Positions 34,198 to 64,000 of a stretch of 64,000 bases of DNA are shown here, piece by piece. Each line of letters opens with the position of its first letter. Positions within the stretch are counted from its first letter, which is position 1. The stretch covers positions 7,850 to 71,849 of the forward strand of contig NW_024468581.1 in NCBI RefSeq assembly GCF_001632365.1. Direction: 5' to 3'. This DNA comes from Laetiporus sulphureus 93-53. Its lineage: Eukaryota > Basidiomycota > Agaricomycetes > Polyporales > Laetiporaceae. Below the pieces are notes generated by a model, which saw only the letters and a program-made list of their open reading frames with translations, searched no databases and was not told the DNA's origin. Both the position numbers and the translations under genes were made by a program.

Positions 34198-37002
34198 TCA
34201 TCGTTTCGTGAAGATCTTGTTCAGGAGGCCGAGCACTTTCGGCACGTTGAGCTGCACGTATTCCAGGTCTAGCAGGTGCTTATTGTCTTTTTGCTAGATA
34301 TGAGCAGGAATGAATGTTAGCTTTGAACGCAAGCTGGGAAGGGGATAAACCGACCTTCTCCAGAAGGTCATCTATGTTGAGATCCATCTCCAGGATGGCC
34401 TTCTCACGACCCTTGTAGTGCAGCGCAATTATGAAAGTACCAGGCGTAGGAGAGGTGAAGTTGAAGTAGATGTTGGGTCGCCTGTCGCGAGTCGGAGCTG
34501 CATGAGACAAAGGACACTAATGCACGTGAGAGCCAACATACCTGTTGTCGGGCACATTGCTCTCGACGATGATACCCTCCTTTTCCAACTGCGCGTGCGT
34601 GAAGCGATAGGGCCCATGAACCACAGGTTTCGCCGGCTTCTTCTCCTTCCCTCCAACGGTGACGACGCCCACGCCCGTCGTCGCGCCCTTATCCTTCGTT
34701 GCAGTGAGGCGGACGTTCTGCAGGTATGCCTTGTACTGCTCGAGCTGCGTGCGGAGATAGTTGTTGTGGTCGCAAATCGTCTTGTACACCGCCTCGAGCG
34801 ACTTGGTCTCGAGCACCACCTTCTCGCGCAGGTTGCCCAGGTGCACGAGCTCCGCCGCGACCTCCTCCTGCATGAGCTTGTACCCGTCCGCGCGGTCGAT
34901 GATCCTGTACTCCTCCAATTCGCGCAGCATCTCCTTCACTTTGATGCCCTTCCGCACGAGCGTTGCGTCCTTGGTCGTCGCTGCGCGCTCAGCGATCGCG
35001 GCGAGGTTGTGCGGCTTCTTGTCATTTGTCGGAGGGAGAGACCGGATCAACTGGACGAGATTGGACTTTGTCTCCATGTAGAGCATATCTGTTGTTGATA
35101 CAGAGTCCATGAGCGCACTCTGGATGTCCTGAATAGGTGTCTCCCATCGGCTGTACAACTGCAGCTCGATGGCGCGGTTCTCCTTTCGAGGAACCTGGGG
35201 CGGTGCTTGACCAAGGTCATCGGTGAGTATGCGGAGATGTTGCTTGTCGTGGGGCGCCTAGAAGACGGCAGGTCAAATACCCGCAATTCGCATGAACTGC
35301 AAAGTAGACGTACAAGGACCTCAATGTGTTGGAGGATTAAGGAGTGCGTGTTGTACAATTCGTTAAGTGTGATGTTGATTACCAGGTCCTTCTTCGACAA
35401 AGCCATATATTGGTCCATCTAACATGCCAATGCCGGTTGAGCAACGGTCAATCTTCTGACAAGGACATGGGTCCGTACCTCAAGTGTGTCATAGAAGTCT
35501 CCGACTTCACAGAGGTTGTTGAGGAACTGGTTGATTCGTGCCTTGTTGTTCTCCACGAACGGGTTGAGAGTTATCATATACGCCTCCTTCGCATATGATG
35601 GCTTGTTAGCGAGGTTCTGTAGCATCTTCGCGATCTACGCAGCATATGATCAGAGATTTACCCATATATGAAATCGGATAATCCTACAAGAGTCAGTGTT
35701 CTTCGCGGGAACTTCGCTGGGACGCCCTCCACAAGCATGTACGCCTGAGGGGTGACTATAGCCGGGTTGATGAAACGAAGGAAGAAGAAACCACCAATCA
35801 GAGAGCATATAGCATAATCTGTCGCTTCAGGGTATTTCCTCTGAGTAAGAAGCAACGCAGTTACCATGTCAGCGCTCGAAGACGACGATCCTGATGGAGA
35901 ATCCACCCACTCGTGTGAGGCTCCTGATCTGCTTACAGATCCACCGGATCCCATACGGAACACTCTCCATGCTGTCGATGATGGTAACGAGGAAGCTATT
36001 CGCAATCTCCATGAGCATGGTCAAGCGCGGAGCGATGATAGTCTGCACATCCGCGTTCGCGCTCGCGGTCTCCGGTGGCACCCCTCGAGGGAGATTTGAA
36101 GGAAGAGAACCAGTCTCCTCCTCAATCTGGGCAATCATCTGTTCGTATACCTTGACCGGGTTGATCTCCAGGTTGAGGTCCTTGTGCTCAATGAGACTGT
36201 TGATGCGCTCGGCAAGCACGCTCTTGAGGTAGCTCTGACCAGGCCCGCGGCGAGTATATGTTGTCATCATGCGTGATACGGGCGTGTTGGCGCGGAGAAG
36301 GGAGCCGAACTCAGTGGCGGTTTCGAATTGGGAGGATAGGACGGACTGGAACATGGTCAATAGCAGATGTTCTTCGCGGCTTTCGTACTGATTTCCGTAT
36401 AGCGTGAACATGACCGTCTGTAGGAGGGTATCAATCTCGGTCAAACTGACGAGCCGACACAGGTTTGCGATATGTCGAGGCTCGGACTGCAGGAGGAAGA
36501 AGAGGTTGGAATACTGTTGGAGCTTGCGGTCGTCAGGATAATGCCCTTCAGTTGCATCAACTTCTTCTAGATGCTTCTCCACTTCGTTTTGCTGTCAGAT
36601 AGTATTGATCCGTGGCTCAGCATAACACAGCATGAGATGGACGGACCTCATCGAGCGCCATCCGATTCTGAATGAGCAGGCCGATCCGAGAGTCGAGGAA
36701 GCGGACATCGCGTTCGAGCACGAAGTTACGCTTTGACTGGGAAGAGATACGAGCTTTAAGTTCCCTAAGCCGCTTTTGTGCTAGTCGCATACAGATACGA
36801 CGCTTAAGCATACTCGGGCATGGAAATGCCAGTCTCGGAACCCACCTCGGCCCAGCTCATCCTCTACTTCGACATCCTGCTCGGCGGCCATACTAAACAG
36901 CGCGGTGACGCTGTAACGGTTCGTATTCCTGTTCGTGAGCCGTCTTGAAGACATGCCGCTTGGAGACTGGGGTGAAGTTGCAAGATCCGAATAGGACGAC
37001 AT
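34198..37002 (-). CDS. gap1: Ras GTPase-activating protein (Gap1/Sar1-type, RasGAP plus RasGAP C-terminal domain)
   Basis: Stimulates GTP hydrolysis on Ras to switch it off. The ATG at 37002 starts a short disordered leader, then a coiled-coil (about 36640-36800). The RasGAP domain spans about 36580-35420. [13 protein letters not shown] carries the catalytic arginine finger (codon 36292-36294, minus strand) and [14 protein letters not shown] is the RasGAP signature. The IQGAP-type RasGAP C-terminal domain follows (about 35150-34200): [28 protein letters not shown], then [19 protein letters not shown] and the stop at 34198-34200. About nine short introns, no lesion. A truncated, mutated paralogue reads divergently from 37730. 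Confidence 0.92.
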
Positions 37003-37729
37003 GTTTGTGTGTGGTATCAACGGGGGAACTGGTATGGTGTTGGTGGCGGTCGCGGAAGGTGTGCGCAGAAGGGAGGCAAGGCGAGGAAACCAGTTGTCGC
37101 CGATGCAAGCCTACTTGGAACGAATGAACGTGGTCGATGTCGTGAACAGTGGCGGGAGAGAGGGTCCTCGGATTATGAGTAGTTGAGAGAACTGCGACAC
37201 GGACGCGGACGGTGTTTACTCCCTTTCGGCAATTTCCTATAGAGTCCCGGCAAGGTATTATTGTTTCCTTAGCGATACCGGCCGGAGTCCCGGACAGTGA
37301 TAAGAAAATACTACTTTTTCCGCCGGGAGTGCCGGAATGTGGCCGGGACGAGCTTACGGCACGCCACACTCTGCGGGTTGCTTTCTGTCGCAGACCATGC
37401 TGCGGTCTGACGGTGTCTGTGTCCAAGCATCGCAAAGGCGTATAAAAATGCATCTCCTTCTCTCTTCCCGCTCCCACCGCAGCTAGCGCGGCGAACTGCC
37501 GCCGCCGTGAGCACTCCCGCGCAGAGCTCATTCTACATCAACAGCATTTTGGTAAAGAGATCGCGTTTCATCAAAGATGGTGCTGCTTTGTGGGTATGGC
37601 AGCAACAACATCATGATGGCTGTGCAAGATCAGATATATCATCATTCAAAAGCTGCGGCATAAAATCGTGGACCATCCTCAGGATGCCATCTCAAGCTCC
37701 CTCCCGAACCAGTTCTCTCCATTTTCAAG
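37003..37729. promoter_or_regulatory. Divergent promoter region between the two RasGAP genes
   Basis: 727 bp. Repeated CCGG-containing words (GTCCCGG, GCCGGGA, CCGGAGT) cluster at 37240-37345, and TATAAAA lies at 37441-37447 on the plus strand. An upstream untranslated or coding exon of the plus-strand gene may lie here (short frame at 37507). Confidence 0.4.
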
Positions 37730-39119
37730 ATGGCCACGTCAAGTTCCGCCCCAGAACACAGCATTGACAAGGAGACACTGGTTTTGTACTCCAAGCTATT
37801 CGGTGTCTTACGCCATGATCCCGAATTCACAGCAACCCTCTGCGAGGTTGTCGGATCGCGCAGCATCGACTCATTTCTCCAGACAGTCATGTTCTCTCTG
37901 TACGTCAGCAATCACGCCAGCGAAGATGAACTTTTGCTCCTGTCCATGATACAAGCGCTGCTCGCGTCGAGGATTGGATTCACCACAGAGCTCACCGAGT
38001 TCCTGCACACGAATACCCCTGTGTCGCGCGCGCTGACCGTCTATTCCCGCCGTGCTTCCCCGCACGATTACCTCAAGAGAGTTCTCGCCGAGCGCATCAG
38101 TCACCTGGTGGCACATGACCAGCTGAATGTTGAAATTGATCCGGTGAAGGTATACGCTCAGATGGTCGCTCAGATTGAGCTCGATGCTGGTTCTCAAGCT
38201 GGGATTCCGCACGAGGTATCGGCAGATGTCGCGGCAGAGGATTCGAACGTGCAGGCCATTATTGCACAACGCTTGACCATGCTGACCTCCATCGCCGAGG
38301 GATTTCTGTCCGGTATCATCCAATCTATCGACCAAGTATCTTACGGGTTGCGATGGATTTGCAAGCAAATCAAGCTCTTCGCACGACTAAGTAAAGTATC
38401 TCCTGAAGCACCACGTGGATCGTAACAACCTACAACTGCCCAGCGGCAATATCCTGACGCTAGCGATCGTTCCATTGCTGCTCTGCTTGCCAGTTTCTTT
38501 TTTTGCGCGTTTCATAATTCCCGCAATTATCACAGCGCAAGCATACCAACTGATTCAGGGCGTACCGCCAAGCCATCCCCAACGGACCTTGACGCTTTAC
38601 GTTAGCGCGATATTCACCATGCCGGATAAGCTTTGACGACCTCCTGCAGATTGCGAATCTGTTGACAAGCTTAGCGGCGGAGCCATCGTACGAAAACGAC
38701 TGGTACATGGCAAAGCCGAAGCCATTTGTCGACAATAACCAGAAACGCACAGATGCGTTCTTGTACAAGCTGTGTGACGTCGATGATTTCGACTCCGCAC
38801 AGGTCTGTCGATCTCATACACATGCGTAGCGCCCATGTTGATGCTTTCTGTCAGTCAAGCGCTCCGGAGGGCGATATCGTTATAAGATAACAGTGAACGA
38901 ATTGTACAACAACCAGCGATTGCTACAGCAGCACTACGATGCCGTGGTGAGTGCGAACTTGCATTCGCCGTTTGAGGTCTGCTGAAAGGGGGGTGTCTAA
39001 TAAAGGCAGCGGACGACGACGGGGTTCTGCGGCGAATCTTGAATGAGCTTGGAAGAACGCCGTCACAGCTCCCTCACTCGGAAGATTTCGCAATTGAGTT
39101 GCGTCTATCTAGCGGCTGA
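37730..39119 (+). pseudogene. Truncated RasGAP paralogue, arginine finger lost and frameshifted
   Basis: The first exon (ATG 37730) matches the neighbouring Gap1 from its SNLFFLL region onward: FLQTVMFSLYVSNHASEDELLLLSM, RRASPHDYLKRVLAERIS, NVEIDPVKVYAQMVAQIE, SYGLRWICKQIK. The arginine-finger position reads FLHTNTPVSRA, so the catalytic Arg is His (codon 38006-38008). After an intron the conserved block needs a frame change within a run of seven T (38498-38504) to read ALLASFFF and then ARFIIPAIITAQAY. Later exons match as far as FAIEL, where the frame stops (39117-39119), so the RasGAP C-terminal domain is absent. The N-terminal coiled-coil is also missing. It is probably a decayed duplicate. 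If the T run is an assembly error, it would still be a catalytically poor RasGAP. Confidence 0.8.
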
Positions 39120-46959: not shown

Positions 46960-49646
46960 ATGACCAACATGTGGTCAGGTCTTCCCAAGTTAGCTTTCGT
47001 TATCGTTCTTGTCGCCAACTGTGTTCTCTGGTCGCGCAGTCGGTATGGGCAAGTCTACTCGAGCAGCTCACGTTCCGTGCTACATATGAAGCGAGACGTG
47101 CTGGAACTAAGGTACACAAATGCTTCGTCGCGGACGCCGTTGGCGTTTGACAGCGAGGTCAGTGCTCCGTCACAAGCAATGGGGAGGCACGCTGATGCAG
47201 CAAACAGCAATGCTTTCCGATCTCTTTCCCCGTAGAGCGCCAGTGTACTCACGTTTGCGAATCGTGCCCGGACACCCGCACATTCCTATCCATTCCCTAT
47301 CTGCGCACTTATTTCTGCGCCGAAGTTTCGCTCCGACCTCTGCTTTTCACCTCATTCTTGCTTTGGCTGATCTTCCTCTTCTCCACACTCGGGATCAGCG
47401 CATCCGACTTCTTCTGCCCGAATCTTGCGACACTCGCGAACCTGCTCGGACTCGACGAGAACATGGCTGGTGTGACTTTCCTTGCCTTTGGAAATGGCAG
47501 TCCGGACGTATTCTCAACATTCTCTGCTATGAAAGCGCACTCGGGTGGGCTCGCGCTCGGCGAGCTCTTAGGCGCTGCAACGTTTGTGGTCTCGTGTGTC
47601 GTTGGCTCGCTTTGTATCATCAAGCCATTCCGCGTCTCCCGCTACAGATTCTTTCGTGACGTCGGCTTCTTCACCATTGCAGTTACCATGCTCCTCGGCG
47701 TGCTCTGGGACAGCCAGATCGAGGGCTGGGAGGCAGTGTCGCTCATCGCTCTATACATCATGTACGTGACGGTCGTTGTTGTTGGAAGCATGTGGGAGAA
47801 GCGAAGGGAGCGGCAGAGGATGTATGAAGAGCTTGTCCGTGATGAGTTCCGAGAGGAGGTGCTTGTGCACACACCTTATCACGACGAGGAACCATATCGG
47901 GATGCGCGTGAGTGGGCCTTCCCTGTCGTTTCGAACGGTAGCCCTCAAGCTCAGGCTCCCGTAGCACTACCTCCGCCAGGAGCCTCGTCAATGCTGCAGG
48001 TACCGACCTACCACTTTTCGAGGTCGCGTGCCCGCTCAAATCCCGTGCTTCCTCGGCTCGGGTTGCAAACCGACCTCCCTCCCCGTCCTCAAACGCGTTC
48101 TCCATCCCCTCATTCCTCACATGTCAGCACTCTGCCGTCGTTCTCCCTCGTGGGTGCTCTCGAGTTCAGACGGATCGTGGCGTCGCTACAGCAGGAGGCG
48201 GCCGGGTCCTCGCTCAGCATGTTCGAAAGTCCGCTGTCGCCGTACCCTGGAGGGCATTATCACCAACATCATCATACACGCTCGCGCTCGCATACACCAC
48301 CGTCAGACAACGAACAGAATCCGTGGGATGCCGCGCTGGGCGTACCGCTGAGCGATCGATCACCGCAATCCTTTTCGCATCAGCTTGAGCGTTCGCGCTC
48401 GCATTCGCCTCAGCCAGTGGCGCTCCCGATAATATCGCGCACGCCAGCATCTCCCATAGTATCGGAGGCCGAGACGGAGACGGAGACAGACTCACAGTCG
48501 CATCAGTACGTTTCACCGACACGGCGGCAGCGGATAGCACGCGTCCTCGGGCACGCGTTCCATGTCGTGTTCCCTACGCTGCATGGGATCGGGAGCAAAC
48601 CACTCCTGGGCAAGGTCGCAGCGGTGCTTGCAGCGCCCGCGGTGATGGCACTGACACTGACGCTGCCCGTGGTGGTGACGGCATACGAGGATGTTGGGCG
48701 CGAGCGCGAGAAGCTGCGCGGCGTCGCAGGCGGGGGTGAGAGCCGGTTGGTCGACTTCGAGGAGGAAGGCATAGAACGCACGCTGATCGCGGAGGACGAG
48801 GTAGCAGAGGAGATGCATGAGCTGCAATATAACAAGTGGCTGATGGCAGTGCAGTGCACCCTTGGGCCGCTCTTTTGTGTTGCTATTTTGTTCGGTGAGT
48901 GCTGCCTACCTGGAGAACGGCGTGAGATAATTCACTGACCTTGATGGACGATTAGACGGGACGAAGCATGAACCGTGGCTGCTGCTGGCGACGGGCGTGG
49001 CGGGCTTCGCTGTGGGGATCATCGTTGCAGTTTTCTCGGATCGAGGTACGCACGCCGGTGCGCAGCTGACGCGCTGTACCATGGGCTTCATGGTTGCTGT
49101 TGTTTGGATTATGGCGATTGCAGATGAGGTTGTAGAGGTTCTACAGGTTGAGTGGTCTTCGTTAATTGCATAGTCTCATCACTGATCCGACAATTCTCAG
49201 ACGTTCGGTTTCATATTTGGCTTGTCTGACGCTATCATTGGGCTTACAATATTCGCTGTTGGGAATTCTCTGGCTGATTTAGTTGCAAACATGAGTGTAG
49301 CAGTACGTACGATGCCAGCGCATCACTCTCGTTTGCTTATGCTGTCTTCCAGGTATTCGCCCCGATCATGGGCTTCTCAGCATGTTACGGCGGGCCGATG
49401 CTGAACATCCTCCTCGGCGTTGGCATCTCGGGCTCCTACATCATCCGGCAGACTGCCGAGCCGTACCCTCTGCACTTCTCCACGACGCTCATCATCACGG
49501 GCAGCGGGCTGCTCGTGCTTCTCCTTGCCACGCTGATTTTCGTGCCGTGGAACGGCTACTTCCTTCCGCGGAGCTGGGGCGTCGTCCTCATCGTGGCATA
49601 TACCGGCTTGATGATGGCCAACGTCATTGTCGAGATCATGAGCTGA
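46960..49646 (+). CDS. Cation/Ca2+ exchanger (NCLX/CCX-type, SLC24A6-like)
   Basis: Membrane antiporter exchanging Ca2+ for Na+ or H+ across an organelle or plasma membrane. The ATG at 46960 opens a signal-anchor (LAFVIVLVANCVLWSRS). A short Cys-containing lumenal segment (QCTHVCESCPD) follows, as in NCLX proteins, then LWLIFLFSTLGISASDFFCPN. The first alpha repeat is FLAFGNGSPDVFSTF...GELLGAATFVVS (about 47490-47600). A long Ser/Pro/Arg-rich cytosolic loop (about 47800-48520) separates the halves. The second alpha repeat is GLTIFAVGNSLADLVAN...GFSACYGGPMLNILLGVGISG (49240-49440). GNGSPD and GNSLAD hold the ion-binding acidic residues. Stop at 49644-49646. The frame is continuous over about six exons; it looks functional. 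Confidence 0.9.
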
Positions 49647-52425: not shown

Positions 52426-55400
52426 ATGGACCTCATCAAGAGTATCAACCGAAGTCACGGCCTCGAAACGATGGGTGATCGTCCCGCAGACGACCCGATC
52501 GTTACTCTACGGGGTAAATTGGAACGCGCCTGTGACCGGTCAGCGATGTTCATCGTAATCAGTCCTGAATCTCACAAATCTCTGCAGCTTGTCGCGGGAT
52601 CTATATAACACCAAAACCCACTTCCTACTAGAGTTCATCCAGAACGCTGATGACAACAATTACGACTCCGGCGTTATACCTACGCTGCAGCTTCAACTCG
52701 AGCGTAGGCGCATGACAATCAGATGCAATGAACTGGGATTCGGTCCTGCGAACGTCAAAGCTATCTGTGATATTGGTGGCAGTACGAAGACAAAGGACAA
52801 GATCGTTCAGGGCTACATTGGTAAGTCACCGCTAACTATGGGCGTCTGGACAACGTATTCATCGCGTCATTTTTAGGTGAAAAAGGAATAGGTCTGAATA
52901 CATTCGTTGGCACCCGTTCTATTTCTGATGGCCCCAACAGGATTCAAGGCCGTCTTTGTTGTTGCCACGAAGGTCCACGTGGCGTCCAACCTTTACACAT
53001 TCAGGTTCGATCGCGATGGACCACTTGGTATGATTAACCCCATTTGGGACAACTCACATGCTGTGGAGCCAAATTGGACGACATTTCGTTTGGACATCGC
53101 AGAGGAGGAACATATGGGAAACCTGAACAAGCAGCTGCGCGAGCTTCAGCCTTCCCTGTTGCTCTTCCTCCGCAAGCTGCGTTCAGTAGATTTGCATGTC
53201 GCTGCCAACCGGAATAATCCTGCGAGGTCCATTAAGATCTCCCGCAATGACCCAGCACCCGATGTCGTCGAGTTAGAGCGCTCGGAGGATGGCGCGAGTA
53301 TTCTGAAGCGCAGGTATATTATCGTGAAGCGGACCACTGTAACGGACCCGGAAGAGCCGAAGAGAGAAGGCATTGAGCGCAGTGAAGTTGTACTGGCATT
53401 TCCGATGACCGCTGAGCAAGAGCCGCTGTTTGAGGATCAGTACATTCACGCTTTCCTTCCTATGAGCCGGTATGGATTCACCGTATGTTCCATCAGCCAC
53501 ACCTCCTCTATCCGCACTTACAGTATGATACCAGTTCGTGATACAAGCAGACTTCCTCACTACATCGAGCCGCGAGTCTATACTTGCCGACTCGAAATGG
53601 AACCAGCAACTATTCGTCGGCATCAGTGATGCATTCGTGGATGCCGTGCAGCGATTTCAAGAGCATCCTATCCTAAAGGATGTATGGATTCGCTTCATAC
53701 CGATGCAAATCAAGGACCCGTTCTGCAAAGTCGCCGACAGGATCATTACTCTGCTCAAGCACCGCAATGTTTTACGTGCTAGTGATGGCACATTGAGCCA
53801 GCCCGTGTCACTCCTCATCCCTCCTCGCCAATTCCGCGATGACGAAAATGAGCCTCTCATTCCCTCACAGTACCTGCCGAAAGGCCTCCGCTATCTCTCT
53901 GATTCGTACGACGTGCATGGCGACAGCGCGTTTTTCTCCACGTTGGGCGTGCGCACAATGTCAGACCAGGACTTCTTAAATGGCCTCAAGCGAATGGGCA
54001 CGGCTATCGGGAGCCAATCTGATCGTTGGCAAGAGACTGTTTGTCGCTGCCTGAATGGGAGGATCCCAAAGACAAGGAAGGGTAAATTTAGACCTGAGAT
54101 ACTGGATCTTGAGATTCTGCCTCTCAGTGACGGTTCTTGGGCTGCCGCTAAAACTGCCCATCGGCATGTTTTCGTGGCCAATCTAGACGGCTTCGCTGAG
54201 CTGAGGCTGTCAAGCATCAAGGAGGGAATCGAGGAGGGCTCGTTTAGGCATCGATTCTACGCTGCATTGGGAGTCAAGCGTGCAGAACCCGCCCTCATCG
54301 CCGAACAGATATTGCAGATACGGAGCCAAGTGTCCGCAGAGACTCTTGTCCGATATGCCCGATTCTTCTATGAGCATCGGAGGTTGCGCGATCTCCCTTC
54401 TCCTGCAGACCTGCAGGTCGTGGATGAACAAGGTCTACGGGCTAGCGGTAAAGAGCTTTATCTAGACGTGCCGGATAGCAAGGGTACAGAGAGAACCCCT
54501 CTGCGTACCATCCTCCCTCGCACCGCTCGGTTCCTCCATCCAGCTTATACGGAGACCTATCACGACCGCTATTGGATACTTTGGCTTCAGGACAGTCTCG
54601 GGATAAACGTCGCTCCTCGACTCATCTCCGGGAAGCTATCCCCAGAGTTTCAGACCATGGCGCGATCAATGGAGACTTTGAAATTCCTCTTGGTTCTTCG
54701 AGAGTATTGGCCTCAACTGTCTCGGGGCATCTCGCAAGAAGGCAAAACACAATTGTCTCAAACAGAGGTAAAGTGTGAAGATGGCAGGCATTTGCTCGGC
54801 ACTACTGCGTTGAAGCGAAGTGCCCTACAGCGCATGCCGAGCAGCTACCTACACTTCTTGCCAATCTCGAATGCAAACAGTGGGGCGTGGAACTTCCTTG
54901 CTGAACTTGGCGTCATGATCGAAGCGAACCTCTCGACGTTCATCAAGCTTATCCTTCAGTTGCAACGCACGGCATGCAACGACTTGTCTTTGATAGTGGA
55001 GCTGTACAAACAACTGAATGCAAGATTTGACGAAGATTCAAACGCCATTCGGTAAGCTCTATAAGATGGTTCGTTGCCACACTGTATGCTCATGTCACAC
55101 GGTGAAGCGTCGCTTTTCAGGATAATCCTCTCATATATGTTCCTTCAGTGAACACCGACGGTCGGGGTTCATGGATCGCATTTCGAGACGCCTACTGGGA
55201 CGGGCCTCCATCTATGACCTCCAAAGTCGTACTGAAGCATTCCTATCCCCTGTTAGAAGACTTCTTCCATTCAAAGCTGTGCATGCGACATGCGCCCTTA
55301 CAGGTTCTCGTCGATGAGTTCAAGTCCTTAGCGGTGAAGTGGAATAACAAGATCCTGACTGAAGCTGTGGCCACAAACGTCGAGGACAAACTTCTTGATA

Positions 55401-57187
55401 TCACCGATTGTTTGGTCCAAGATCCATATGTTGCTTCCATTCTCTCTGAGATTGCAGAGCTGCCAATCTTTCCGGTATGTCAGCCTGGAAAGAGTTCAAA
55501 GCGTGTTCTTCAGCGCATCCATGAGTTCTACGTGCCCGATCAGGCTGGCAAATACGCAGAGCAGTTTGAAGATAAAGTTCCGCTATTGGCTGTTTCTCCC
55601 AAGCTGTCGGTTGTTAGCATACAACCGTTATTTAACTGCCACACGTGGAAACAACCGGCTCGGTACCTTGAGAGATGTATTTCCGCACAAACAGTTGCCC
55701 ATGGAACGCGGAAGGTGGACATGCCGGTTACGCAGCAATACATACGCAGACTTGAGTATCTCGAGAGGTGCGCCCTCCGCCGTTTTACGGGACCCTGCTT
55801 AACATTCATTCGTGACAGGGAATTGTACCACAAACGGTCTTCGAGGATTCCGACCGATCAGATGGAGTTTTTGCGAAAGATGGACAATCTAACAATCGAG
55901 ATCGTGGGATCGATCTCGTCAAGTTTGACTCTGGAAGAGCACGTTGTCCAAACCAACGCTACTTCCTCAATCCAAGAGGATGACGATCGTGTGTCTATAT
56001 TCGTGGCACAAGCCTCCGCCAACAACGAAAGGAAACGCGATCGCCAGGTATGCAGCCGTCTCGCAGAACGTCTCGACTTGGATGGGATGAGACTGCAACG
56101 TTTGTTTGAAACGCCGGTGGACGAACTGGAGGAGCTATTAGATGAACAGGGAGTATTTGCCATTCCGCCGGAGGCAGAACGCATACGCAAAACTTCCTGG
56201 CTTACTACCGACACCATGACCAACGATCAACCCCTAACTTCCCCCCGACGTGTCGCAAAACCCGAAGAAACAGATTTACAGATGGAGCCTCCGCCAACTC
56301 TTGCTTATGTACCGCCACATGCTCGCAATCCTGTGAAGAGAAAGCGTGATAAACTTGATGATCTCGAAGAGAATATCCGGGATTTGCGAATGAAGCTATC
56401 TTCCTCGTCGAAATTCACGCAAGGCGAAGTCCGCACTCCAGGCTCGTCTCCTCGCCCTGTTCAAACGGCGAGGGAGATCGCGCGATTTATGAGTGCTCCC
56501 GTCAGTCCAGGAAAACTCGCATCATCTCCCGGGAAGGAATCGTCGGCAAGGGCAGTCACCGCTGTTGCACCGTCAACCGCAAGTGATCGCGTCAATGGAA
56601 TTCTAGGTGAACTCTATGTGAGATAATCCCACTGTTCTGCCGTACACAGAATTTCTGATTGTGCTGGATCCCAAAGGTGTACGAGCTTCTCCGCGAACTA
56701 ATTGGTCTTGACTTCGATGAAGAGAATTGGACTAGCGAGCTCCGTGGCGAAGTCCACGACCTGGCACCTTTCAGTGGGGATGCTCTGGCCGATTTCAGAT
56801 ACAAGGACAGCAGCGGCATCCTAACGGGCTTATGGTATGGAGAGAAGATTAGAACCGCCTGGGCAGGCATGTGGCCGACGTATCACCTCGAGGTCAAGGC
56901 AACGAGCGGCTCTGCGCGCGAGCGCTTCCATGTGAGCCAGAGGCAACTGGATGCGGTCAGTAAATGTCATCAATTTTTTGGTGCATCGTCTGATAAGCTC
57001 TGTGCAGGCGCAGCACTTGACGAGTCTGTCCGACTCGTCAGGAATAATTCCGACAGATGTCTACGTGATCATCCTCGTAACCGGAATCCGCAGTGCATCC
57101 CCATCTCATATGGTGTTCATTGATCCCCACAGATGCATCTATCATGGCGATTTGTTGATTCAATCGGATGTCTACCTTTCGTTGTAA
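52426..57187 (+). CDS. GHKL-ATPase / DUF3883-like protein, array member 1
   Basis: About 1,400 residues. Exon 1 (52426-52538) starts MDLIKSINRSHGLE. The N-terminal Hsp90/sacsin-like ATPase has FLLEFIQNADDN (N box, about 52630), AICDIGGSTK, and GEKGIGFKAVF, whose GEKGI is on a 15-nt microexon (52877-52891). A long middle region (53530-56500) is shared only with its neighbour. Near 56200-56590 it becomes Ser/Pro/Lys-rich with RKRDKLDDLEENIRDL. The C-terminal domain (56590-57187) has GELYVYELL, FSGDALADFRYKD and YHLEVKATSG then FHVSQRQLD, i.e. the Glu, Asp and E-x-K of a PD-(D/E)XK fold. Ends DVYLSL at 57185-57187. Arabidopsis NO VEIN has the same domain pair. No lesion seen; acceptor choices near 55115 and 55795 were set by comparison with member 2. 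Confidence 0.85.
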
Positions 57188-58452
57188 TGATTCAGCCGAT
57201 GACGCGCTCAATGAATCACACATCACTTCACACCAGTGTGTGCTAACCGTTAATAGACAGGCGCTCTATCACGTCCTGCCACAGGTGACGCCACAAATGA
57301 CAATGTTGAATTCTTGTTTAATACGCCAGTGTTGCCGGACAGTGGTAGCAAAACTGATAATTTCCACGCACACGACTGTGCGTGTGCTCCAGCTGTGCAT
57401 CCTTTGTTGAACAAGGACGGCCTACATAAACTGCAGCCTGACGCGTGATGATGAGTCACGCCGCGCCGGGACGTGTCGATCAACACACCATAAAATATCG
57501 GTCGACCCGCGTGGAATAAGTGAGAGGTTGTTCGCAAGAACGCAACACCGCGAGCACTGCCGATGGCCGAGTTTGGGCATGCGGGGCTGCGCGCAGTGCC
57601 ACCGGCGCAGGCATTCTGATCAACTCGAGTCCCTTTTTCCCTCAACGAATTCGCTGTGGTAGTATGCTCAACGCTTGCCCGCTGTCACAGACAAATGCTA
57701 TCATTCGCGCATCCTGCGTCATGCTTTCGGGGATCTCAATCGCTGGATGATGGATCCTTCACAAGCGCGACTAATGCGGAAGAGAGACTGGACAACATAT
57801 ATTCTTAAAAAAAAACTTGACCCGATCCTGGATAGCTATTCACCGGCTTCGAGTCTCTACTAGGCGCGGTTACCCGTCGATGTGACGCTCGTCAATGATG
57901 GATAGCCGTAGTCCGCCAATTGCACATGCATCGTTCAGTAACTGATTTGCTACGGAGGTATCAGCCTGGTCTCAACAGATCAAGAGAGAAGGATGCTCTA
58001 GGAAAAAGTTCATGGTGCGGCCCTGGTGTTAGCCAGCCGCTACCTTCCTGTCTCGTGGGCGCGGTCTCGTGGGCGCGAAGAGTGAGAGGCCGGTTAGGGC
58101 CACAAACGACTGGGGAGTTCAGTACCACAGGTGCGTATTTATATGATTTTCCGCCCTTCCGTGCTCTCCCGCTCCGTTTTCAGGTACCGCCCTGCGACGC
58201 GTTTCACCTCCCCACGCGTTGAGCGCGCGCCGCGTTCCACCAGAAGTGCCGTCACTCGGTCACTTCGAACGGATGCAACAGGGCCGAACAGGCACTGTCT
58301 GGCACATTCCAAATCGGTAACAAGTAACAACATGTTGGGATGCCTTCGCGGATACCATGCGGTTATTAGGTTTGATGTCGAAACGTCAAAATTTACGCAC
58401 ATATATAAGAGGGTCTACAGCAGGTCGATGCTCGGTTCCTCACACTCTCGCA
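57188..58452. promoter_or_regulatory. Spacer between array members 1 and 2
   Basis: 1.27 kb with no supported gene. TATATAAG at 58402-58409 is the likely TATA box for member 2 (ATG 58453). A word CAGCCTGACGCGT at about 57432-57444 has a close relative (TAGCCTGACGCGT) at 63445-63457 in the next spacer, so spacers probably derive from the same duplication. Confidence 0.5.
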
Positions 58453-61400
58453 ATGGACCTCATCAATAGCATCAATCGCAGTCATGGACTGGGCAGCATT
58501 CGCGAAACCCTCGAAGCAGAGGATCCAATTGTCGTATTGCGGGGCAAATTGGAACGAGCTTGTGAACGGTGAGCGACTTCTCTTGTGCACACTTTTCGTG
58601 CCTGACGGATTCGTGTAGCTTGTCCAAAGATTTGTACAATACGAAGACTCATTTCTTGCTCGAGTTCATCCAGAACGCGGATGATAACGCTTATGGGCCC
58701 GGTTCAGTTCCGACTTTGCAGCTCCAACTGGAAGGTCGCCAGATGACGATCAAATGCAACGAGCAAGGCTTTACGCCTGCTAATGTGAAGGCGATATGCG
58801 ATATAGGTGGAAGCACGAAGACGAAGGATAAGTTGATACAGGGATACATTGGTGTGGTTTTATGGATATCTCCGCTAGAAATCTCTGCTGACAAACTTAC
58901 TTAACATCTGAACTCTAGGCGAGAAGGGAATAGGTTAGCTTGATGCCTGTCGTGACACACATCATGTTGTTGATTGCTGCCGTAGGTTTCAAGGCGGTGT
59001 TTGTCGTCGCATCCAAAGTGCATGTCGCGTCCAACGCCTATACTTTCAGATTTGATCGCGATGCGCCACTGGGCATGATCAATCCAATATGGGACGCCAC
59101 TCACAATGTTGATCAGGGCTGGACGACATTTCGGTTGGACATAGCGGAGCACGAGCATATGGGAAAGCTGAGTAAGCAGATAGGCGAGATACAGCCGTCC
59201 CTACTGCTCTTTCTCCGTAAACTGCGTTCAATCGGAATGCGGGTGACCACCGCAAATTATCCACATATGCGGACAATCAGCGTTGCGCGGAATGATCCCG
59301 CTCCGGACATCGTCGAGCTAGAGCGCTGGGAGAACGGAACGAGCGTGCTGAAATGCAGGTACATTGTGATCAAGCACATGGTCTCGACCATCCTCGACGA
59401 GCCGAAGAGAGAGGGAATCGGACGGAGCGAGGTCGTGTTAGCGTTTCCTATGACATCTGACGAGCAACCGATACTCGCGGATCAATACGTTCACGCATTT
59501 CTTCCTGTAAGCCAATATGGCTTCGCCGTGCGTATATTATCTGTCTACTCGGTTTTTTTGTCTTATGTTTTTTGAGGACAGTTCGTGACTCAAGGAGACT
59601 TTCTAACCCCATCAAGCCGGGAATCGATCCTAGCAGACTCCCGATGGAACGAGAGGCTATTCTTGGGCATCAGTGATGCCTTCTTTATCGCCATTGATAG
59701 GTTCCAAGACCATCCGGTCCTCAAAGATGTCTGGATTCGTTTTGTTCCTTTACGTCCCAAACAGCCCTTTGCTAAGGTGGCAGAACGCATTGCATCTATG
59801 CTCGCGAAGCGCGCTGTACTGCGGTCCACGGATGGAGCGCTTTGTCATCCTATCCACCTGATCGTTGTTCTAAGAGAATTGTGCGACCTTGATGGGGAAC
59901 CCCTCATCCCTGCGCAGTACTTGTCCGGCAAACTCCGTTACCTCTCAAAATCCTATAACGTGTCCCAGGACATGATCTATCTGCAACGGCTCGGTGTGCG
60001 CACCATGAATGACCAAGACTTCTTTGATGGTCTCAAACGAATGGGTAACCAAATCTCTCGACAATCCGACTCCTGGCACGAACTCGTGTGTGGTAAATTG
60101 CACGACAAGATCACGAAGGGCAAGCAAGGGAGGAAAGCTAAACCTGCAATCCTAGATCTAGTAATCCTCCCTCTGAATGATGGCTCTTGGGCGTCCGCGA
60201 AGTCTGCCCCGAGCCATGTCTTCGTCTCCGACTTGAAGGAGTTCAAGGAGTTGCAACTCTCGAGCATCAGAGAGGGCATCCCAGAGACGTCTTCCAGATA
60301 CCGGTTCTATGCCGCTCTCGGGGTCAAACCTGCCGGACCAGCTCTCATCGCAGAACGCATTCTGACCTCGCAAACATCGACTGCTCCCGAGACGCTATTG
60401 CGTTATTCCCGATTCTTCTTTGAACATCGGCGAGTTCGTGGTATGCCTTCTGCCTCGACTCTCAAAGTCGTGGACGAACGCGGGCTCTTGGCAGATGGCA
60501 AAGAATCATACCTGGATCTATCGAATGACAAAGAGACTGAGACAACCTCGCTGCGCAGTATACTTCCCTCGACCGCTCGATTCCTACATCCGACCTACAC
60601 CGATACTTACCAGGACCGATATTGGACAATGTGGCTACAAGACAGTCTTGGTGTCAACACAGCTCCTCGAGTCGTGTCCGGACGACTATCACTGGAATTT
60701 CAGATGATGACGCAAACGCTAGAGACATCTCGCTTGCTCTTGGTCCTCCGGGAGTATTGGCCTCAGATGTCTAGAAAGCTCTCTCAAGAAGGTAAAACCC
60801 AATTGTCGCGAATGATTGTGACATGTGAAGATGGCAGATACCCACTCGAAACGACTGCATTGAGGAGGAGGGCTCTTCAAAGCCTTCCCAATGGTCACAT
60901 TCGTTTCTTGCCTATGTTGAACGCAAACGACCATGGATGGAATTTCCTTGGAGAACTCGGCGTCATGATCGATGCCGATTTGGGTACATTCATCAAGATT
61001 CTCATACATCTGCAGCAGACGAAATGTCAAGAGGAATCCTCGATTATGGAAACCTATAAGCAGCTCAACGCTAGGTTCCACGACAATCCTGGTGCTATCT
61101 GGTGAGCTCTACGCGATGGTGTTCCGCGAGACAATCAATGTTCATCCATTTGCATAGTTCCGCGTTCAAGGACTATCCCTTACTCTATGTCCCCCGAGCA
61201 CGCGAAGGTGGCTCGCATACATGGCTTGCGCTTCGCGATGCATACTGGGACGGCCCACGGTCGCTCCGTTCTAAGGTGCTCGTGAAGCGTTTGTATCCGA
61301 CACTGGAGGACTTCTTCAGAGACAAGCTCGGAATGCAAAACGCCTCTTTGCAGACTCTTGTAGATGAATTCAAGAACCTCGCTAATCAATGGAACGGAAA

Positions 61401-63191
61401 ACCGTTGCCTGAGTCGACCATTCTCAACATTGAGGGCAAGCTCCTTGAGATCACTGATTATCTTGTCCGAGATATGAAGGCGGCGTCGACTTTGTCACCA
61501 CTCGCACAACAGCCGATCTTCCCTGTTTTTCTTCCTGGGAAGAGAGATAGTCCAAGGCTACAAGCCATGGGCCTGTTCTACGTCCCAGACAGGAGCGGTA
61601 AGTACGCCGATCACTTCCTTGATCGAGTACCCCTCCTGGCCGTGTCCGCGATGCTTTCGATTGTTCGGATACAACCCTTACTGGACTCTGTTATCTGGAA
61701 GCAATCAGCACTGTATCTCGAGAATTCGGTCAGATCGCAAACCAAGGCGTCTGGAACAAGAACAGAGGACACTCAGGCAATGCAGCAATTTAAAAGCAGG
61801 TTGGAATACATCGAGAGGTGTGTATTCTGTTGCGCAATGCATGCTGTTGCTCACACCAAGTTCGTAGAGATCTTTACCACAAGAGAGGCTCTTCCGAGCA
61901 GATGGAGTTTCTACAGAAATTGGACACAATGACGGTTACGGTCGTTGACTCCATCCTTTCCACGTTGACTTTAGGAGGGCATACTGTAACTTCCAATGCA
62001 AACTCCTCGATTGAAGAGCAAGTAGGACGTGTCGCTATACTCGTAGCAAGGGCTTGTACGAACAGTAGCAGGAGGCGCAACCGAGAGATCTGCAGCCTCC
62101 TTGGCACCCGCTTGGGCTTGGATAGGATGAGCTTACAGACGTTGATTGATACACCACTTGACGAGGTCGAGGAGATGTTGGACGAGCAGGGTATTACAGC
62201 CATCCCAGCAGAAGCCCGTCGTCTACATTGTCATGCCCGCTACGAAGATGGCACTCTTGTCGATGCTAGCCCCCGAATCCTTTCTACAGAATCATCAGGA
62301 GCTGCGGCCATTCGTCTCTCATCAGCAGGCACACAAGGTCATCGCAGAGCGAAGTCAAACGTGGAAGCTGAAAAAACAAATGTGGACGTGCGGACTTTCC
62401 GGGCAAAAGCGGCAAAATCGTTGCTTTCATCCAGCCAAGTCCTGAGTGCAGGTTCTTCGCGGTTTCAAGCGCGCACCGCGGGCAACCTCGCCGCTCCTAT
62501 CAGTGCAGGAAAACATGGGAAGTCATCTGGAAAAGCATCAGAAAACAAGGATATGGCCGTCGCCCCATCGGCTGCAAATGATCGTGAGAACGGCATCATG
62601 GGCGAATATTTTGTGAGTAGCGTCGGGCTGTCACTTTTCAGATGTGTACTAATCACGTCACGCCGTGTAGATCTATGAAGTGCTGCAGCAGACTTTAGGA
62701 GCTGATTTCAATGAGGAGAATTGGACGAGCGAGCTCCGCGGCGAGATCTCCGGCTTTACGCCTTTCCAGGGTGATGCTCTGGCCGATTTCAGATACAAGG
62801 ATGATAAGGGCATATTGACAGGCTTATGGTATGGGAATCAGACTAAGTCCACTTGGGCAGGTAGGTGGCCAACATACCATCTCGAGATTAAGACAACGAG
62901 CGGGTCTGCGCGTGAGCCCTTTCATGTGAGCCAAAGGCAAATGGAGATGGTCAGTACCTGTCAATGAGTCCGACTACATATGCATACTTAGTAACAGATT
63001 GTTTGCAGGCATTGCACTTGACAAGCCGGACGGACTCGCCCGGAATAGTTCCAACCGATGTCTACGTGATCATCCTCGTCACCGGGATCCGTGGTGCATC
63101 CACTTCTTACGTGGTGTTTCTTGATCCCCACCGACGCATCTATGATGGGAATTTGTCGATTCAGTCCGATGTCTATCTCTCATTGCTATGA
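58453..63191 (+). CDS. GHKL-ATPase / DUF3883-like protein, array member 2
   Basis: Tandem paralogue of the gene at 52426 with the same exon order. It starts MDLINSINRSHGLGS. ATPase motifs: FLLEFIQNADDNAYG, ICDIGGSTKTKDK and GEKGIG with the 15-nt microexon at 58919-58933. The long central exon (59585-61105) matches member 1 throughout (LGVRTMNDQDFFDGLKRMG, LPLNDGSWASAK, DRYWTMWLQDSLGVN). An apparent frame change near 61820 is an intron (GTGTGT...GTAG, about 50 nt). The C-terminal domain has GEYF joined to IYEVL, GDALADFRYKDD, YHLEIKTTSG and FHVSQRQM, then DVYVIILVTGI and the stop at 63189-63191. All catalytic-looking residues of both domains are kept, so both functions are likely maintained. 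Confidence 0.85.
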
Positions 63192-63907
63192 TACTGCTAC
63201 TGACATACTCAGTGAAGACACGACACACAGCCGCTTGAAACTTCTTGCCATAATTTGATTGTAAAGCACTCTTCTTGGCTGATACCGCGAATGACAATGA
63301 TGATTTCATGTATTGCGCGAGTGCCTAAAGCTGAGGATTGATAGAACGAATGGTGATCTCCTACGCATAAAATTCTACGTGCATTTTAGTAGTGCAGCCC
63401 TGTTACAGGAAGCGGTGGCCTCACATGCAGGTCTGCGTGCTGGATAGCCTGACGCGTACAGTCACATTGCATCACAGCTTGTCACGCCGTGTGTACAGTG
63501 AATCGGCGAGAGTGCCTCCTCATCCTCGTCCTCCTTTGTAGCTCAGTCACTTTGATGTGTACGGACTATGCTCAGCTCCAGGCCTTCCCCTTTCAGGACT
63601 CGCTGACAGCGATCATCATTAAATTAACAACTATCCTTTGCCAGTAATCTACCGTGCAGCTATCACAATCCATAGTACCTGGTAGTCTACTTCTTTCTCT
63701 TAGAGCTCGAGCCCACGATTGAAGATGTAAGTCGTCATTCACCCAGATTGGAGCCAAGCGGCATGCTCTGCCGCTCGAATATGCGGGCGCTCTTGTACAC
63801 AGTGTGGTCTTTGAGTTTGATGTCTCATCACAGCCTCGGCAACGTGCACAATTCTTGTCCAAGTCTATATCGCGAAGACAAGAAGGCTGGATTCTGGCAC
63901 TTCAGCC
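63192..63907. promoter_or_regulatory. Spacer between array members 2 and 3
   Basis: 716 bp, shorter than the previous spacer, with a related word at 63445-63457. No gene supported and no clear TATA box. Confidence 0.4.
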
Positions 63908-64000
63908 ATGGACCTCGTCACCAGTATTAATCGTAGCCACGGCCTCGACGACAATATCAACATACGGCCCCCGGACGACCCAATCGTCGTACTTCGGGGT
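63908..64000 (+). CDS. GHKL-ATPase / DUF3883-like protein, array member 3 (cut by window end)
   Basis: The ATG at 63908 opens MDLVTSINRSHGLDDN, the same first-exon start as members 1 and 2, followed by DDPIVVLRG at the last bases. Only 31 codons are visible, so whether the gene is complete is unknown. Its presence shows that the tandem array continues past the window. Confidence 0.8.
   Translation, partial: MDLVTSINRSHGLDDNINIRPPDDPIVVLRG

Follow-up and report, generated by a model that had tools for sequence, protein, structure and literature searches.

A tandem array of Tiamat-like genes in Laetiporus sulphureus pairing a GHKL ATPase with a predicted nuclease domain, and a HET-fused clade of relatives in Pezizomycotina

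What might three large, tandemly repeated ATPase genes do in a wood-decay mushroom? The question is raised by a locus of Laetiporus sulphureus 93-53 at which, within the window (the whole 64,000-nucleotide stretch analysed), two complete paralogues, N1 and N2, and the start of a third, N3, lie head-to-tail on the + strand. Gene models and database proteins both bear out this arrangement, which had been read from open reading frames in a preliminary description. N1 (52426..57187, 1445 aa) and N2 (58453..63191, 1430 aa), spliced by script, have nine exons each, GT-AG introns at eight positions in common and a third exon of 15 nt. The exons of N1 are 52426-52538, 52588-52820, 52877-52891, 52941-53482, 53535-55051, 55108-55767, 55819-56617, 56677-56955 and 57008-57187, and those of N2 are 58453-58568, 58619-58851, 58919-58933, 58986-59527, 59582-61101, 61158-61817, 61868-62612, 62671-62949 and 63009-63191. 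The N2 protein is letter-identical to database protein P0001, and P0002 equals N1 except for a 59-aa N-terminal extension. N3 places the first 93 nt of its exon 1 inside the window (63908..64000) and is intact past the edge, ending at 68924 in extended window coordinates; its protein (1530 aa) is letter-identical to P0003. All three copies share the eight intron positions and are 57-61% identical. An unspliced six-frame match to N3 carries one TAG, which the gene model places at the end of an intron. A mid-domain query against the assembly found three places and a C-terminal query seven, all on contig C72, with no additional close copy in either case; bacterial-type promoter, Rfam and tRNA searches returned nothing useful.

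The array is old, because dS between N1-N3 is saturated (dN 0.30-0.35), and a recent burst of copies was rejected on the same ground. In the tree the Laetiporus copies form one clade adjoining Fomitopsis/Rhodofomes relatives. The family itself occurs widely across Dikarya and prokaryotes, and therefore only the triplication is lineage-specific. The lineage-specific expansion suggested earlier thus holds as a triplication with a clade of its own, but the expansion is old and the family widespread.

The N-terminal part of N1-N3 is an Hsp90/sacsin-type GHKL ATPase, encoded by exons 1-4 (approximately aa 1-300; 52426..53482 in N1 and 58453..59527 in N2). A TRAP1 match (6.5e-07) and a sacsin ATP-binding model, above cut-off in all three copies, support what the motifs had indicated. 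Against the Pfam family SACS (PF25794, cut-off 32.8 bits) N2 scores 33.9, N1 30.4 and N3 29.8, and SACS and HATPase_c_3 are the only Pfam families listed for N1-N3 at E up to 1. Membership of sacsin proper was rejected because HEPN, DnaJ and ubiquitin-like families are absent from that listing. A short ATP-binding profile run against the assembly also matched sacsin-like genes of another subfamily on contig C54, an inverted pair separate from the array, and gave a weak match on C20.

Resemblance to sacsin and Hsp90 is consistent with a housekeeping role in quality control or development, in which the proteins would be sacsin-like chaperones or NO VEIN-like regulators with a C-terminus binding nucleic acid structurally and no part in immunity. 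The low dN relative to saturated dS suggests long purifying selection between the copies, and sources name many relatives NO VEIN or Sacsin/Nov. The missing sacsin-associated families argue against such a role, as do the catalytic conservation and the domain fusions described below, and we consider it decidedly unlikely. The GHKL fold class is also common to the MORC family, from which a MORC-like silencing of chromatin or transposons through the ATPase might be proposed; SACS and HATPase_c_3, however, are all that Pfam gives for these proteins, and such silencing is highly improbable.

The C-terminal domain of N1-N3 is predicted to be of PD-(D/E)XK type and nuclease-like, as first surmised. 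In N1 it spans part of exons 7-9 (56579..57187, start approximate) and in N2 it lies at 62574..63191 (start likewise approximate). The catalytic D and ExK are in place in all three copies; by sequence, the D, E and K codons are at 56791-56793, 56890-56892 and 56896-56898 in N1 and at 62785-62787, 62884-62886 and 62890-62892 in N2. The motifs quoted in the preliminary description are present, with ALADFKY and IEVKATGG as the N3 variants, and its statement that key residues are kept is true of every copy. The fold class comes from predicted models of relatives, not of N1-N3 themselves (pLDDT 91 for a bacterial protein and 93.5 for P0230), for which a fold search returned mainly PD-(D/E)XK enzymes in its high rows, with weak Foldseek E-values. 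Sequence searches of the PDB with N2 or with two NOV_C profiles gave chance-looking hits only. PF13020 (NOV_C) does not match N1-N3 at E up to 1, and a search of the Laetiporus genome with it found nothing, presumably because these domains have diverged too far and are interrupted by introns; the same family is over the Pfam cut-off in the relative P0070. The claimed NO VEIN domain pair is linked through relatives, but PF13020 itself misses the three copies.

Outside the HET clade discussed below, 78 of the 84 unfused fungal proteins carry the complete D..[DE]xK signature (78/91 unfused fungal rows overall), which points to catalysis and away from a purely structural C-terminus. One form that catalysis might take is restriction-like cutting of foreign or selfish DNA or RNA, with self DNA spared. 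Restriction enzymes and resolvases are among the fold neighbours of the relatives' models, and a passage of one paper terms DUF3883 a novel REase domain, encoded in an operon alongside R-M components (PMC3710099). The addition of a HET domain in relatives, however, points to death as the output, and restriction-like cutting, although compatible with the reading we prefer, seems somewhat unlikely.

On sequence comparison, the closest named family that we found for the array proteins is prokaryotic TmtA, which we take to be the Tiamat anti-phage protein. Millman 2022 is reportedly the source paper for Tiamat. TmtA profiles from PADLOC match P0001 (N2) at 5e-81, P0002 (N1 with its extension) at 8.3e-81 and P0003 (N3) at 1.2e-71. 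These matches fall mainly over the N-terminal half; in the controls L009 and L032 the match is nearly full-length. The same profiles also match all five of the other fungal proteins scanned, among them three with a HET fusion. Among six prokaryotic relatives scanned whole, NOV_C is above cut-off in 6/6, SACS in 4/6 and TmtA in 6/6. A fungal NOV_C profile matches the C-terminus of 5/56 prokaryotic ORFs (domain E < 0.001), and a profile-profile comparison gives 97.6% (E 2.7e-12). In N1-N3 and prokaryotic relatives alike, GHKL, middle and NOV_C-like parts are laid out in a single protein of ~1500 aa, and a quick tree separates fungal from prokaryotic rows with support 98. Replacement of NOV_C by HNH in some prokaryotic members is no more than suggestive, because the matches are weak (4/44 at E up to 0.01), with both inspected scores (20.4 and 18.4 bits) below the cut-off of 21; L014 matched no family. 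Tiamat stands among systems of unknown mechanism in an excerpt of a 2023 paper (PMC10482375).

Here we report a clade of Pezizomycotina homologues with an extra C-terminal HET domain (PF06985) and a decayed nuclease site, and it is this clade that is new. The nuclease-like domain is detected in 110 of the 115 HET-fused members listed, and within these 110 the catalytic D is never retained and the K is retained in six, while W1295 (105/110) and F1317 (108/110) persist and T1296, S1297 and R1300 also remain conserved. The ATPase residue E54 is retained in 113/115. Many independent fusions, with the nuclease site lost anew every time, are unsupported: a tree using 55 of the 115 HET rows has three changes of HET label, all within one clade, and the correlation between fusion and site loss therefore represents one or few events. 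Fusions in P0030 (HAM1) and P0227 (alcohol dehydrogenase) are likely gene-model joins and were excluded as evidence on effectors. A HET domain is not listed for N1-N3 (Pfam scan, E up to 1), and the five HET exon matches in the Laetiporus assembly include none on C72. In excerpts of two papers the HET domain is reported to be sufficient for induction of cell death (PMC10197012, PMC12881547). These patterns suggest an effector handover, from nuclease to HET, on a single receptor scaffold; HET fusion, like the TmtA match, would be unusual for a chaperone.

The retained W, T, S, R and F residues beside a lost D and K fit retention for binding, and the NOV_C-like domain may be viewed as a nucleic-acid sensor for which nucleic acid is the trigger; in the HET clade catalysis would have been lost because binding suffices and HET does the killing. 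Sensing alone, however, leaves the strong D..ExK conservation of unfused members without an account, and we think this unlikely, if compatible with the preferred reading.

Based on the gene structure, family, residues, HET fusion and active-site loss, all obtained by computation, we propose that the array comprises three full-length fungal members of the TmtA (Tiamat-like) family, which are probably gated-nuclease immune or non-self receptors. Each protein starts with a GHKL ATPase, continues through a long middle region and a fast-evolving linker, and ends in the PD-(D/E)XK nuclease-like domain. The dimer gating, trigger, substrate and outcome are what we infer: the middle region would sense a trigger, the GHKL dimer would change its ATP-bound state, and the nuclease domain would be freed to act on nucleic acid, with damage to the invader or to the fungal cell. 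In the Pezizomycotina clade a HET death domain sits on this platform and the nuclease site has decayed. The TmtA match and the HET fusions in related moulds suggest an inherited device for immunity or for the recognition of non-self, lending support to the defence role first raised as a possibility. More tentatively, and at a little under even likelihood, fungi may possess a conserved branch of a bacterial anti-phage system that had not been linked to it before. It would kill or restrict through a gated PD-(D/E)XK nuclease in Basidiomycota, while one lineage of Pezizomycotina would have passed the effector role to HET and let the nuclease decay, so that bacterial anti-phage immunity and fungal non-self recognition meet on one receptor scaffold; the Laetiporus array would be a diversified receptor cluster of this type.

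If so, the family would tie the cell-death immunity of fungi to bacterial anti-phage immunity by a further route, alongside the gasdermins, TIR-like HET domains and PNP_UDP discussed in passages of a 2025 review (PMC12881547). It would also offer a natural comparison of nuclease and HET on one scaffold, helping to work out how the Tiamat family acts, and concrete candidate non-self recognition loci in wood-decay mushrooms.

Among known systems, sacsin shares with N1-N3 the GHKL ATPase type (PF25794, above cut-off in N2), but the array proteins have a single SACS stretch. The domain pair of plant NO VEIN is the same by name, a name also given by sources to many fungal relatives, whereas N1-N3 lack a PF13020 match. 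SPARDA is Argonaute-linked and is not known to have a GHKL ATPase. The likeness of its effector chain (9qcc, 9vx6) is in fold only. The HET-fused ascomycete homologues have the GHKL, middle and NOV_C-like parts of N1-N3, but with HET added and the catalytic D gone in 110/110. TmtA/Tiamat agrees in its N-terminal GHKL ATPase, long middle, NOV_C-like C-terminus and length of ~1500 aa; unlike it, the Laetiporus genes are eukaryotic, intron-bearing and tandemly triplicated, with a C-terminus under the PF13020 threshold.

Gene models spliced from the sequence bear out the three tandem, head-to-tail paralogues seen in the preliminary description. N1 (52426-57187, 1445 aa), N2 (58453-63191, 1430 aa) and N3 (1530 aa), which runs from 63908 to 68924 in extended coordinates, sit on contig C72 of the 38.6 Mb assembly. 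Each has nine exons, including a third exon of 15 nt, and eight GT-AG intron positions are common to all. The database proteins P0001 and P0003 are identical to the N2 and N3 models, respectively, and P0002 differs from the N1 model solely by a 59-aa N-terminal extension. Searched against the whole assembly, a mid-domain query matched three places and a C-terminal query seven, every one on C72, and these two queries found no further close family member there. By eye, reading frames upstream of the array (window 47196-49646) resemble a sodium/calcium exchanger gene, and a cytochrome P450-like frame lies beyond N3 on the opposite strand.

The copies share 61, 57 and 57% pairwise identity, with dN of 0.30-0.35 and a whole-gene dS that is saturated and not computable. 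In the only stretches with computable dS, the GHKL and NOV_C-like parts give a dN/dS of 0.09-0.17 and the linker one of 0.32-0.75; identity between copies is 20-31% in the linker (N1 aa 1157-1285) versus 61-73% in the end domains. A tree built from 104 first-round homologues, out of the best 120 of 552, unites N1-N3 in one clade with support of 100, adjoined by two Fomitopsis/Rhodofomes pairs. Because dS is saturated and the copies form one clade beside these pairs, the triplication is, judged from sequence, lineage-specific as had been proposed, yet old. Among the matches listed, some other basidiomycetes also have at least two members on contigs of equal length, which serves as a stand-in for location on a single contig: Rhodofomes (P0005/P0007), Amylostereum (P0016/P0024), Cristinia (P0037/P0044) and Auriculariales (P0054/P0055/P0059).

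The GHKL ATPase assignment of the N-terminus also stands. The NCBIfam sacsin ATP-binding model is above its cut-off in all three copies, the Pfam SACS match is near cut-off, and a profile built from 15 relatives picks out Hsp90-type structures among PDB entries (TRAP1, 6.5e-07; sacsin 5v47, 0.0097). E54 (P0001 numbering throughout) is conserved in 94/98 unfused fungal, 113/115 HET-fused and 55/56 prokaryotic rows among the matches listed, fungal rows shorter than 1300 aa and the unusual rows P0034, P0048, P0081 and P0082 being left out. We take the conserved ATPase residues to be the GHKL N-box and lid.

Two giant sacsin-like genes elsewhere in the assembly (contig C54, about 47-54 kb on the + strand and 57-66.9 kb on the - strand) form an inverted pair with 91.7% identity across 6967 bp; each has a 57-bit sacsin ATP-binding match. 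They belong to a different subfamily from the array. A BTB-like stretch was read by eye in this pair. Also by eye, the window holds two facing RasGAP-like frames of similar protein sequence (34517-36594, -; 37664-38425, +), perhaps a gene and its diverged inverted partial copy, and a chromodomain-bearing Ty3-type integrase end that leads into a dUTPase-like tail (537-1913).

Precomputed Pfam annotation placed HET (PF06985), a fungal cell-death domain, in 10 of the best 120 of 552 homologues. With a second search using those ten as queries (best 120 of 2300), HET occurs in 115 proteins among the matches listed, and lies C-terminal to the NOV_C-like domain in 5/5 proteins checked. The NOV_C-like domain is detected in 110 of the 115, and its catalytic D1316 is retained in none of these 110 (T 62, S 18, A 15, P 12, other 3) and K1351 in 6; among unfused rows, D is conserved in 81/91 and the complete D..[DE]xK in 78/91. 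HET-fused rows retain W1295 (105/110), F1317 (108/110) and R1300 (105/110). G1271 is down to 4%, Y1389 to 8%, and S1364 and P1360 to about one third; position 1349 is D or E in 75/110, and an acid falls somewhere within 1313-1319 in 24/110. These counts speak against loss at the active site alone. HET-fused proteins form one clade in a tree with 55 of the 115. The triad is complete in 0/7 unfused members within it in which the domain was found (P0080 retains the D) and in 78/84 unfused members outside it. Because HET-fused proteins fall in one clade, whose seven unfused members with the domain also lack the complete triad, the sequences indicate that the proposed handover from nuclease to HET is one or few events, with fusion and decay in either order.

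Two ascomycete homologues have long C-terminal extensions, with PF28131 in P0073 and an FG-rich tail in P0075; neither NOV_C nor HET was detected in these extensions, which may represent alternative effectors or errors of gene prediction. Within the Laetiporus assembly, PF06985 has five exon matches, on C38, C37, C6 and C4, two of them lying roughly 5 kb from each other on C38, in opposite orientation.

ATP would close the GHKL dimer, the middle region would sense a trigger, and the C-terminal effector would then be freed across the flexible linker. HET is described in two papers as sufficient for cell death induction and a distant relative of TIR (PMC10197012, PMC12881547). The combination, in relatives, of a death domain with a decayed nuclease site would be in keeping with a death or defence output of the Laetiporus nuclease. 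The earlier reading of an ATP-gated effector system is, as a whole, partly supported and also strengthened. Neither a link between the fungal family and Tiamat nor HET fusion with nuclease loss was found in the partly accessible literature, subscription papers and preprints aside; since these lie outside the check, the HET-bearing branch with a predicted dead nuclease site is provisionally new.

PADLOC TmtA models of the anti-phage system Tiamat match P0001 (5e-81), P0002 (8.3e-81) and P0003 (1.2e-71), the best stretches ending at residues 363-728, and likewise match 5/5 other fungal proteins, of which three are HET-fused. Bacterial and archaeal genomes yielded at least 80 loci when scanned, and ORFs were read in 56. 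The last 360 aa of 44 ORFs (3' end closed, at least 1000 aa) matched NOV_C in 26, HNH_2 in 4 and Mrr_cat in 3 at E up to 0.01; both HNH_2 matches examined fall under the cut-off. HNH-like C-termini may replace NOV_C in the prokaryotic relatives L014, L036 and L038, as a sub-threshold HNH_2 match (L036, L038) or a motif found by regular expression (L014, L036); the TmtA match was confirmed in L014 and L036. According to a 2025 paper on plant-associated metagenomes, 100% of Tiamat systems were on plant sequences (PMC12409356). In a quick unrooted tree that combines 20 fungal with 47 prokaryotic rows, the fungi occupy one side of a branch with support of 98. The Laetiporus genes are further members of an already known family.
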